A stretch of 64,000 nucleotides of DNA from an uncultured Rhodobacterales bacterium (GTDB taxonomy: Bacteria; Pseudomonadota; Alphaproteobacteria; Rhodobacterales; Rhodobacteraceae): contig CAIQOV010000016.1 in NCBI GenBank assembly GCA_903873585.1, positions 1-64,000 of the forward strand, read 5' to 3'. The notes below the pieces were generated by a model. The model was given only the letters and a program-made list of their open reading frames with translations, had not been told where the DNA came from and ran no database searches. Made by a program: the position numbers and the translations under genes. Shown here one piece after another: positions 2-38,566 of the stretch. How positions within the stretch are numbered: the first letter of the stretch is position 1; each line of letters begins with the position of its first letter.

Positions 2-1147
2 CAAGTCGTGCTGTCTTCGGCCACGCCCAGTTTGGAAAGCTGGGCCAATGCCAAGGCGGGCAAATATGCACGCCTTGATCTGGGGGCGCGCTTTGGTGTG
101 GCCGAACTGCCCGCGATGCACACGATTGATATGCGCGCCCAAAAGCTGCCCGCTGATCGGTGGATTTCAGACCCCTTGGCGCAAGCGGTTCAAGCGCGGG
201 TGGCCAAGGGCGAGCAAAGCTTGCTGTTTCTGAACCGCCGCGGTTTTGCGCCCGTCACCCTGTGCCGTGCTTGCGGCCATCAGGTCGGCTGTGACGACTG
301 CGATGCGCGCATGGTGGAACATCGGTTCCTAAAGCGCCTTGTCTGCCACCAATGCGGGGCGACCAAACCCATCCCGACCGCCTGCCCAACCTGCGCCGTT
401 GTGGGCCGCATGGCCCCCGTAGGCCCGGGGGTTGAGCGTTTGGCCGAAGAGGTTGTCGCCCGCTTTCCCGATGCGCGCCTTGCGGTGTTGTCGTCAGACC
501 TGTTCACCTCGGCCCGCGCGTTGAAAGAGGAAATCCAGCGCATCGCGCAAGGGGCGGCTGACATCATCATTGGCACCCAGATCGTCGCCAAGGGCCACAA
601 CTTCCCGCTGCTGACGCTGGTGGGGGTGATTGACGCCGACCTTGGCCTGCAAGGATCAGACCTGCGCGCCGCCGAACGCACGTTTCAACTGATCCGTCAG
701 GTCGCAGGCCGCGCAGGGCGGGCCGAACGGCGCGGCACGGCCTTGTTGCAAACCTATCAGCCCGACCATCCGGTGATCACAGCCATCTTGGGCGGCGATG
801 AAGAGGCGTTCTGGGCCGCCGAAGCGGACGAGCGCCGCGCCGCGGGCGTGCCGCCCTATGGCCGCATGGCGGGGATCATCCTGTCTTCGCCCGATGTCAC
901 CCAAGTGTTTGATTTCGGTGCTGAACTGGCACGGCGCGATGGCCCCTTGCGCCGGATCGGGGCCAGCGTCTATGGCCCAGCACCTGCCCCGATCGCGCGT
1001 GTGCGTGGGCGGCACAGGGTGCGCTTGCTGGTCAAAGCCGATAAAGGCGCGCCCCTGCAAGCTGCCCTTGCGGAATGGGTGGGCCAGCTAAAACAGCCCA
1101 CCAACCTGCGCCTTGCCATCGACATCGACCCGCAAAGCTTTTTCTAA
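2..1147 (+). CDS. priA: Primosomal protein N' (PriA helicase), 3' part
   Basis: C-terminal 381 residues of the replication-restart helicase PriA; the 5' part lies before the window and the reading frame is already open at base 2. The first visible residues (LSSATPSLESW) match the PriA helicase core motif. The zinc-binding insert follows at about residues 85-135, with CRACG, CDDC, CHQCG and CPTC cysteine pairs. The downstream motifs GTQIVAKGHNFP, DADLGLQGSD and QVAGRAGRAERRG are helicase motifs V and VI. PriA reloads DnaB at collapsed forks. It stands next to convergent maeB. Identification is very secure; only the true start is unseen. Confidence 0.97.
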   Translation, partial: QVVLSSATPSLESWANAKAGKYARLDLGARFGVAELPAMHTIDMRAQKLPADRWISDPLAQAVQARVAKGEQSLLFLNRRGFAPVTLCRACGHQVGCDDCDARMVEHRFLKRLVCHQCGATKPIPTACPTCAVVGRMAPVGPGVERLAEEVVARFPDARLAVLSSDLFTSARALKEEIQRIAQGAADIIIGTQIVAKGHNFPLLTLVGVIDADLGLQGSDLRAAERTFQLIRQVAGRAGRAERRGTALLQTYQPDHPVITAILGGDEEAFWAAEADERRAAGVPPYGRMAGIILSSPDVTQVFDFGAELARRDGPLRRIGASVYGPAPAPIARVRGRHRVRLLVKADKGAPLQAALAEWVGQLKQPTNLRLAIDIDPQSFF

Positions 1148-35593: not shown

Positions 35594-35809
35594 GGTGATC
35601 TCCGCTGTACATCAGCGATCAACCACAGTTGAATGAATCTTTTGCGACAGCGGTTGACCGTGATCTGTTTGGGGTGCCGATTTTGTCATAAATATTCCAT
35701 ATTAATTCCGAAGCACGCCGAAATTAAAAAACACTAAAAAAAAATTAGACAGGTTAAAGAAGCGATGTTTAAATCTTGCCACCCAAAACTTGGATCAAAA
35801 AGGATCATC

Positions 35810-36664
35810 ATGCTCATCGCTCCCATATCAAAAATTGCTGGACTGCGCAAGCTTGCAATCACGGCGGGTTTTTTGACAACCCTCGCTTTGCCCGCTGCCG
35901 CCTGCCCCTTGCCGGCCCCCTATGTCAGCCGCGCTTTGGATGCGGTACTGGTTCCAGTGGATTCGTCGGTTCGCAGCGCTTTTGGTCTGTCGATCCATGA
36001 AGCCGGCCTTTTGGTCTTGGCCGTAGAACCCGGTGGTATTGCCGATACGATCGGGATCAAGACCGGCGACATCATCGGGGAGACTTATGGCCAAGTTGTT
36101 GAAGACCCGATTAAGTTGGACGAGATCGTCTATTACTGGATCAACAAGGGCGTCTTCGACTTTGGCTTTGATGTCTGGCATGAGGGGGCTGTTCAATACT
36201 ACACCAGCACCATCTCGCTGGAATCTTATACGACCGTCATTGATGTGACGACCGTTTCAACTTGGTCTAGCTATTCTTACGAAGGGTTCAGCTATTCGGA
36301 ATACTCGGCAGAATATAGCACCGAAATACACGAAACTTACGTCTCTTCTGAAACCATCATCGAAGAATCTATCATTTCGGAAGAATTCATTGCCTTCGAG
36401 ACGAGCGAAGTTGGCGATGATGACCCGACACTTGACACGGACCACGACGGCACGCCGGATATCGCCGATACTGACGACGATAATGATGGCATCTATGACT
36501 TGGCCGATGCCGATGAAAACAGCGATGGCGCCCTTGATGACCCGGAATGGGACAACGACCATGACGGAACGCCCGATATGTCCGATACCGACGACGACAA
36601 CGACGGTGTTTCGGATGCCGAGGATGGGGACGACAATGGCGACGGTGTCGACGATCAGGGCTAA
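35810..36664 (+). CDS. Secreted PDZ-like protein with Ser/Tyr/Glu-rich linker and acidic Ca-binding-type repeats
   Basis: 284 residues. Signal peptide about 1-31 (LALPAAACPLP). PDZ-like domain at 58-125 (GLSIHEAGLLVLAVEPGGIADTIGIKTGDII is the carboxylate-loop half). Residues 135-200 are rich in Ser, Tyr, Thr and Glu. Residues 203-284 carry repeated DxDxDG-type motifs (DTDHDGTPDIADTDDDNDG and related, each seen twice or more), like thrombospondin type 3 calcium-binding repeats. AAAGGA precedes the ATG at 35810; an earlier ATG (35765) is less likely. Function unknown; probably envelope or extracellular. Confidence 0.8.
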   Translation: MLIAPISKIAGLRKLAITAGFLTTLALPAAACPLPAPYVSRALDAVLVPVDSSVRSAFGLSIHEAGLLVLAVEPGGIADTIGIKTGDIIGETYGQVVEDPIKLDEIVYYWINKGVFDFGFDVWHEGAVQYYTSTISLESYTTVIDVTTVSTWSSYSYEGFSYSEYSAEYSTEIHETYVSSETIIEESIISEEFIAFETSEVGDDDPTLDTDHDGTPDIADTDDDNDGIYDLADADENSDGALDDPEWDNDHDGTPDMSDTDDDNDGVSDAEDGDDNGDGVDDQG

Positions 36665-36686
36665 AACTGACTAAGTCTACGAATGA

Positions 36687-36717
36687 AAGCATCGGGTCTT
36701 GGCCCGGTGCTTTTTTT
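36687..36717 (+). terminator. Rho-independent terminator
   Basis: Stem AAGCATCGGG (36687-36696) pairs with CCCGGTGCTT (36703-36712), 10 bp with one G-T, 6-base loop, followed by a T7 run. It ends the PDZ protein transcript, overlapping the uvrC stop of the convergent gene by two bases. Confidence 0.92.
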
Positions 36718-38566
36718 ATGGATTGAAGAAGTTGTAAATCGCCTCGGCCATCGCTTGCGAGATGCCACCCACGGCCATCAGATCGGGCACACCGGCGCGG
36801 CTAACGGCTTTGGCTGACCCGAAATGCGCCAGAAGGGCGCGTTTGCGCAGGGCACCCACGCCGGGAATATCGTCCAGCGGGGTGATCGACACCGCCTTGG
36901 CGCGTTTGGCGCGGTGTGCGCCATTGGCCCAGCGGTGCGCTTCATCGCGCAGGCGCTGGATGAAGTACAGCACCGGGTCGTTGCGCGGCAGGGCCATGAC
37001 GGGCAGGCCGGTGCGGTGGAACTCTTCCTTGCCAGCATCGCGGTCAATGCCTTTGGCCACGCCGACCACGGCGATGTCTTCCACCCCCAGATCGGCCAAA
37101 ATCCCCGCCACGGCCGAGATTTGGCCCGCCCCACCGTCAATCAGCAAAAGATCCGGCCAAGCATCGCTTTTGCGGTCTGGGTCTTCTTTCAGCAGGCGTT
37201 CAAAGCGGCGTGTCATCACCTCGCGCATCATGCCAAAGTCGTCAGAATTGGCCCCTGCGGCGGATTTGATGTTGAACTTGCGGTATTGGCTTTTCACGAA
37301 CCCTTCCGCCCCCGCCACAATCATGCCCCCCACAGCGTCAGAGCCTTGGATATGGGCGTTGTCATACACTTCAATCCGTGCGGGCGGGGCATCTAAATCA
37401 AACGCCTCTGCCAAGCCGCGCAGCAGGGTGTTTTGGGTAGAGCTTTCCGACATCCGCCGCGCCAGACTTTCGCGGGCATTGCGGGCGGCGTTTTCCAACA
37501 GCTCGGCCTTTTCCCCGCGCAACGGCACGGCGAGTTCGACCTTGCGGCCTGCGCGTTCTGACAAAAGCTGGCCCACAAGGTCGGGGTTTTCAACGGGGTG
37601 TGACAGCAAGATCAGCGGTGGCGGCTCTTTATCGTCGTAAAACTGGGCGATGAAGGCTTCCATAATCTCTGGCTCTTCCGCGCCGGCACCGGTCTTGGGG
37701 TAAAAGTCGCGGTTGCCCCAGCTTTGATGGGCGCGGATGAAGAACACCTGCACGCAGGCTTGGCCGTGATCCAGATGCAGCGCGATCACATCGGCCTGTT
37801 CCACCCCGCGCGGGTTGATGCCTTGGCTTTGCTGCACTTGGGTCAGCGCCTTGATCCGGTCGCGCAGGGATGCGGCGCGCTCAAACTCCATCGCTTCGCT
37901 GGCGGTCGACATTTGCTTGGCAAGATCGGCCTGCACGGCGGTGGTTTTGCCCTGCAAGAAAAGTTCGGCATCTTGCACCAAAGCGGCATAGGTCGGGCCA
38001 TCGACCTTACCCACACAGGGGGCCGCGCAGCGCTTGATCTGATATTGCAAACAGGGGCGGGTGCGCCCTTCAAACATGCTGTCGGTGCAATTGCGCAGCA
38101 AAAACACCTTTTGCAACTGGTTCAACGTGCGCGTCACCGCCCCGCCGCTGGCAAAGGGGCCAAAATAGCTGCCCTTTTCAGTCTTCTTGCCACGGTGCTT
38201 TTTAATCTGCGGAAAGGGGTGGTCTTTGGTGATCAGGATATTGGGGAAAGACTTATCGTCACGCAGCAGCACATTGTAGCGCGGCTTAAGCTGTTTGATG
38301 AGATTCTGTTCCAGCAAAAGCGCTTCGGTTTCGGTGCGCGTGGTCAAAAACATCATCGAGGCGGTTTCATACACCATCCGCGCGATGCGGGCCGAATGGC
38401 CGTAATCGCGGGCATAATTCGACACCCGCGCTTTTAGATTGCGCGCTTTGCCAACGTACAACACCTCGCCTTTAGTGTTCAGCATCCGGTACACGCCGGG
38501 CGAGCCGTCAAGCGTTTTCAGGTAGGCTTGGATGACTTCTTGGCCAGTTTGGACGACGTCGCTCAC
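36716..38566 (-). CDS. uvrC: Excinuclease ABC subunit C
   Basis: 616 residues. GIY-YIG nuclease at the N-terminus ([19 protein letters not shown]), YFGPF and [18 protein letters not shown] motif [15 protein letters not shown], RNase H-like C-terminal nuclease with [18 protein letters not shown] and [11 protein letters not shown], and the final helix-hairpin-helix pair ([18 protein letters not shown]). Makes both incisions in nucleotide excision repair. Starts with GTG. The region upstream is non-coding. Confidence 0.97.

Follow-up and report, generated by a model that had tools for sequence, protein, structure and literature searches.

The window analysed here, a stretch of 64,000 nucleotides from an uncultured Rhodobacterales bacterium, holds between ppk2 and uvrC a gene that raises two questions: what kind of protein it encodes, and whether it came to this junction as a unit. 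A reading made from the letters alone (the sequence-only reading) had taken the product for a secreted PDZ protein with a linker rich in Tyr, Ser and Glu and with calcium-type Asp repeats. It had known no named family for this architecture and had taken the gene for a single inserted unit. Our answer is that the gene was likely gained or shifted as a unit, and that its product is a predicted exported protein whose PDZ domain is related to PDZ1 of DegP and DegQ and is followed by a conserved Ser/Tyr/Glu-rich (SYE) segment and an acidic tail.

An apparent single-gene insert between uvrC and ppk2

The ORF is intact, with 284 amino acids and a stop, and lies, as had been noted, between ppk2 and uvrC, both on the minus strand. 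Its parts follow one another as signal peptide, PDZ domain, SYE segment and acidic tail (residues 205-284), an order that had been proposed earlier and is borne out by ORF, domain and fold data (Table 1). A longer in-frame ORF begins at 35765; we prefer the ATG at 35810 for its better ribosome site. The upstream region had been called an AT-rich promoter region, and of this the AT-richness stands (61% A+T in the 220 bp before the ATG) but not the promoter, since a stock scan listed no sigma-70-like site on the + strand of that region. The terminator claimed after the gene is seen as a hairpin with a T-run, though the stock scan, by its own rule, listed none there. The T-run (36711-36718) overlaps the uvrC stop codon (36716-36718, opposite strand), which places the right border of the insert at or within that stop codon. 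GC3 is 0.607 for the PDZ gene versus 0.724-0.767 in four neighbours, a value to which the unusual amino acids of its product may contribute.

Table 1. Features of the PDZ gene and its surroundings in the window.
Feature	Position	Strand	Basis
Apparent single-gene insert, by comparison with relatives having an empty junction	35689..36718	+	BLASTN; borders approximate (left 35650-35689, right 36712-36720)
AT-rich leader, putative promoter region	35689..35799	+	A+T content
Shine-Dalgarno-like AAGGA	35800..35804	+	5 bases before ATG, read from sequence
Exported PDZ / SYE / acidic-tail protein	35810..36664	+	ORF list, translation, homologues
Predicted signal peptide, residues about 1-31	35810..35902	+	Simple hydropathy rule
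Most conserved motif, residues 33-49	35906..35956	+	Entropy 0.69; aligned with HtrA ligand-binding loop
PDZ domain, HtrA/DegP PDZ1 type, residues 38-134	35921..36211	+	AlphaFold2, Foldseek, VIA-align, hhalign
Conserved SYE segment, residues 135-200, mostly helix in the prediction from 162 on	36212..36409	+	Alignments, AlphaFold2
Acidic tail with six 13-residue TSP3-like DxDxDG units, residues 209-284	36434..36661	+	Motif scan, repeats
Intrinsic terminator hairpin (36685-36714) and T-run	36685..36717	+	Sequence read, hairpin rule

Three relatives whose ppk2 is 98% (G001), 97% (G007) and 95% (G014) identical to that of the window have 81, 84 and 81 bp, respectively, between uvrC and ppk2, as against 1125 bp in the window, which upholds the idea of insertion as a single unit. 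When locus L105 was compared with the window by BLASTN, strong homology on the left stopped at 35649 and a weak 20-base piece (E 0.42) reached 35688; on the right, homology restarts at 36712-36720 in L105, L106 and L107. Inspection by eye showed neither a target duplication nor a terminal inverted repeat at the insert, nor a recognisable mobile-element gene next to the PDZ gene in the window. The simplest reading is that the gene was likely gained at the junction, or shifted to it, as a unit; loss in the relatives combined with a rearrangement is an alternative that we do not favour over it. G006, G011 and G013 carry the gene on the opposite side of ppk2, adjoining pgsA.

Other ORFs occupy the uvrC-ppk2 gap in G011 and G008, and the junction (window 35594-36718) has the look of a minor hotspot for insertions. 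The gene is also found near uvrC, two ORFs away, in two Cypionkella loci (L046, L048), which points to an old association with the region and argues against a wholly recent arrival. The junction of G011 (2267-3051 of L110) holds an ORF for about 200 amino acids; that of G008 (3177-3637 of L116) holds one that is cupin-like by eye.

A rare family without a model in the libraries scanned

Domain searches in Pfam, NCBIfam, PHROGs and PADLOC found no model covering the full-length protein, in agreement with the earlier view that it belongs to no known named family, and no description of it was found in the open-licence papers searched. From sequence comparison we define a putative, unnamed alphaproteobacterial PDZ-SYE-acidic family by an LPxPYVSRAL-type motif, a PDZ domain, an SxW-S/Y/E segment and an acidic tail, all four of which the window protein has. 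Scanning contigs from named organisms with two patterns yielded 26 loci, which belong to Rhodobacterales, Devosia, Mesorhizobium and Aquamicrobium, the Rhizobium type not being among the matches, and plasmid records gave 6 Rhizobium matches. Environmental isolates with the gene include Rhodobacter sp. KR11 and Rubellimicrobium rubrum. Removal of four loci whose frames are broken in the stored sequence or truncated at a contig end (L048, L056, L057, L067) leaves 22 members, and counts out of 25 below comprise the window protein, these 22 relatives and two Rhizobium proteins from two of the six plasmid records. Overlapping searches returned the same genes under two labels (L042/L003, L044/L002, L045/L004, L057/L005, L055/L013, L058/L014, L061/L015, L062/L016, L059/L007 and L060/L008).

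Within the window's genus an intact gene is present in 4/16 genomes, the window's own included, and a fifth genome has a broken copy; the raw tally was 6, with G003 matching inside a DegP-like frame of 551 residues, and the incompleteness of several genomes in this set leaves absence uncertain. A core profile at E 1e-12 matched 5/394 genomes of the family sample, again with the own genome included. At E 1e-8 it matched 129/385 genomes of the class sample, where the listed matches are mostly the PDZ part of DegP-length frames; an SYE-only profile was therefore used for the class, and at E 1e-5 it matched a single genome of 385, the window's own, although this profile holds no Mesorhizobium-type rows and could miss members of that type. 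The gene is best explained as accessory rather than core. Our verdict on the protein is that it is real, rare and without a name in the libraries scanned, and that it belongs among exported PDZ proteins. In the broken copy, that of G005, the gene parts lie at two contig ends (1-330 of L113 and 1-260 of L114), as if an insertion sequence stood between them.

A PDZ domain of the DegP PDZ1 type

By a simple hydropathy rule, a hydrophobic core is found in 25/25 aligned proteins and a net positive n-region in 22/25. The protein would be exported by a Sec signal, to the periplasm or beyond; an outer-membrane export signal was not recognised. Sequence models match the PDZ domain weakly: Pfam PDZ_6 gave E 0.0028 (17.8 bits, cut-off 27), and the NCBIfam DegP model gave E 3.1e-05 (23.1 bits, cut-off 416.2) over its PDZ part alone (model positions 242-302 of 434). 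Structure prediction nevertheless returned a clear PDZ fold, as the sequence-only reading had expected, with AlphaFold2 block means of 90-97 over residues 41-140 (confident PDZ; alignment of 23 sequences). The top VIA-align match was PDZ1 of DegQ (Z 11.9, 99 residues, 1.9 A); MamP (Z 11.3) and other HtrA proteins came at most 1 Z unit lower, and Foldseek ranked MamP first, followed by DegP/HhoA. An hhalign comparison with 23 PDZ1 domains of DegP, drawn from 27 inspected loci, gave a probability of 97.1% and E 5.6e-11. Profile and fold comparison together show that the domain is related to PDZ1 of DegP/DegQ.

Like the window protein, DegP and DegQ are exported, but these HtrA proteases have a trypsin-like protease domain and a second PDZ domain, both of which the window protein lacks, whereas it has the SYE segment and the acidic tail. 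It was rejected as an HtrA protease itself, because the roughly 37 residues before its PDZ domain, mostly signal peptide, leave no protease domain. A passage of PMC11642142 describes DegP PDZ1 as binding the C-terminal portion of substrates. In the hhalign register the L-G-V of the HtrA ligand loop falls on L43-D44-A45 of the window protein, within the most conserved motif, whose column entropy of 0.69 compares with 1.67 for the remaining PDZ. P37, S40, L43, A45 and L47 are invariant in 25/25 members, and position 41 is R or K in all 25. The Gly position of the HtrA loop (44) is D in 19 members, K in 2 and G in 4; being non-Gly in 21/25, the loop could have altered or lost its peptide binding.

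The SYE segment is conserved and the calcium-type tail is not

Column entropy in the SYE segment is 1.56-1.61, no higher than in the PDZ domain, and 2.13 in the tail, across relatives from Rhodobacterales, Devosia, Mesorhizobium, Aquamicrobium and Rhizobium. W152 and an aromatic at 162 (Y or W) are present in 25/25, Y169 in 23, I173 in 22 and Y177 in 20. These values do not support the description of the stretch as a linker; since its conservation matches that of the PDZ domain, we read it as a probable working part of the protein. In the full protein, AlphaFold2 block means for residues 141-190 were 80-87. Modelled alone, the segment had a mean pLDDT of 58, with helix over the matching residues, and its standing as a fold of its own was dropped. 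Helical amphipathicity was also dropped as proof of structure: it was not above shuffles in the window protein (z -1.3) and reached p<0.05 in 3/23 proteins tested, the window protein not among them (L063 and L066 were omitted owing to segment length).

In the tail of the window protein, the pattern D.[DN].[DN][GS]..D begins at residues 209, 222, 235, 248, 261 and 274, a spacing of exactly 13, and the TSP3-like Asp repeats noticed earlier are thus real. Six sites compare with a mean of 0.35 in 5000 tail shuffles, none of which reached six. At the DNA level, a 20-base repeat family recurs at 78- and 39-base spacing, and by eye the array resembles two copies of a block of three units. The 13-residue DxDxDG units are shared with TSP3 repeat proteins, but the tail alone scores under the Pfam TSP_3 cut-off (E 0.024; 14.8 bits versus 25), and TSP_3 was not listed in the whole-protein scan. 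Judged from the motif, this tail probably binds Ca2+.

Acidic tails are found in 22/22 complete relatives, with net charges of -21 to -95 and with varying sequences (GGDD, EESYEEPV, EDPAA and DSSDD runs). Arrays of 13-residue units, however, occur in 3/25 members, six units in the window protein and three each in its genus homologues L042 and L044. Sites without an array are present once each in L050, L051, L055 and L064 and twice, not 13 apart, in L065. Such arrays therefore do not define the family, and calcium-type repeats lose the place in the full architecture that they had been given. The calcium idea is reasonable for the window member, not for the family. The Rhizobium plasmid proteins, annotated generically in RefSeq as 'PDZ domain-containing protein' (WP_260299732.1, L102), share with the window protein the signal, the motif (ISKALDALLLP), the PDZ domain, the S/Y/E segment and the acidic tail, but differ in having no TSP3-like units. 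Of these two proteins, one carries an acidic tail; the other, L103, stops shortly after the SYE segment and is nearly tailless.

Several other identities were considered. MamP, a magnetosome PDZ/magnetochrome protein, resembles the window protein in having a PDZ without a protease domain; an identity as a magnetochrome protein was rejected, the CxxCH haem motif being present in 0/25 members. The GG.G.D of RTX nonapeptide arrays (GGxGxD) is absent from the window protein and matches once among the 25, in L061. As for a phage origin, 0 of 13 pattern matches in viral contigs were confirmed, no match was found in phage records, and the best PHROGs match had E 0.023 over 42 residues. PADLOC assigned 0 families, against a defence system, and a single sub-threshold Rfam match lay outside the gene, against an RNA element.

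Possible function

Neighbour genes vary between most groups of loci and so indicate no partner. A terminator stands directly after the gene in 12/23 members, under a rule that was set after the sequences had been inspected; 60 base shuffles averaged 0.33 and gave 3 at most. Together with the varying neighbours, this suggests that the gene often stands alone. In Mesorhizobium and Aquamicrobium (L063-L066) the same-strand downstream genes encode exported proteins, with matches to DUF4424 (E 4.4e-84, L063) and to M60 peptidase (E 1.7e-44, L066), and also a protein with two DTG motifs by eye.

We tentatively propose that the protein is an exported, stand-alone PDZ1-like peptide-binding adaptor with a polyanionic and, in the window's genus, probably Ca-binding tail. 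After Sec export to the periplasm or beyond, the DegP/DegQ-related domain would grip other exported proteins by their C-termini or by exposed peptides. The Tyr/Trp-rich segment may pack on or beside the PDZ domain and tune or cap it, a proposal that accords with the segment being modelled confidently with the PDZ domain present (80-87 versus 58 alone). The disordered polyanionic tail might keep the protein soluble and bind divalent cations, and in the window's genus it would have been turned into a TSP3-like array likely to bind Ca2+. To judge by the terminators, the protein would mostly be expressed alone. The family, which no model in the libraries scanned covers, has an HtrA-type PDZ that is not part of a protease and is joined to a conserved Tyr-rich module. 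Were the adaptor reading true, or one in which the protein modulates DegP, some bacteria would have a dispensable means of regulating how envelope proteins are handled. The three- and six-unit tails of the sister proteins offer a natural test of the change from acidic tail to calcium site.

The same parts can be put to other uses. The tail could bind Ca2+ outside the cell in a surface or biofilm-matrix protein, with the Tyr-rich segment serving in adhesion or cross-linking and the PDZ domain as an anchor. The six regular units, the acidic tails of all complete relatives, the conserved Tyr-rich segment and the exported-protein genes (M60 peptidase, DUF4424) beside L063-L066 fit such a role, but we hold it to be rather unlikely given the lack of a recognised outer-membrane export signal, the lone RTX-type match in 1/25 and the restriction of calcium-type arrays to three members, with isolated sites in five more. 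The gene could also be neutral or selfish, an accessory picked up at a hotspot for insertions and of little effect on the cell. This would account for the patchy spread, the low GC3, the other ORFs at the junction in two relatives and the broken copy; strong conservation of the loop and SYE segment across orders speaks against it, as does the lack of a recognised mobile-element gene alongside, and it is the least probable of the readings given here.

A free PDZ1-like domain might instead act as a decoy or assembly modulator of DegP, competing for PDZ2 or for clients, with its Tyr segment mimicking the Tyr444 lock. The positions aligned with DegP L276 and M280 (numbering carried over from the VIA alignment of 41..143 with 263..359 of 3otp_E) are V54 (V in 20/25) and F58 (F/Y in 25/25), and L68 (L/Y/M/F in 25/25) aligns with what we take, from the E. 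coli sequence, to be F289. A passage of PMC8654288 reports that the M280 patch of PDZ1 receives Tyr444 of PDZ2 and that the M280-Y444 contact locks DegP oligomers. The hydrophobic/aromatic patch makes a Tyr-based clamp thinkable; yet the needs of the fold may suffice to explain its conservation, 5/25 members have Ser or Thr at position 54, no genetic link to degP was seen, and the class-wide core-profile matches are mostly PDZ domains of DegP-length frames, with SYE in the own genome alone. We judge a decoy role unlikely. Still more doubtful is the joint idea that a DegP-derived PDZ1-like family with its own Tyr-rich clamp controls periplasmic quality by competing with or capping DegP, a cation-sensitive tail adding Ca2+ dependence in the window's genus. 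Our preference stays, tentatively, with the peptide-binding adaptor.

Observations at related loci

In two genus members there is, besides the gene itself, a longer paralogue of about 480-500 amino acids with an EDPAA-type acidic tail (1384-2820 of L007; minus strand of L008), which lies next to ABC-exporter-like and sulfotransferase-like ORFs named by eye. Exported-protein genes in varying combinations lie at 5941-10359 of L063, 5869-9183 of L064, 6010-9343 of L065 and 5947-12264 of L066, and comprise two-DTG proteins (pepsin-like by eye) with weak PATR repeats, DUF4424 proteins and an M60 peptidase with a lectin domain. At both Devosia loci a tRNA-Lys gene (5681-5756 of L050, 5683-5758 of L051) ends about 150 bp upstream of the PDZ gene; tRNA genes are a common kind of integration site.
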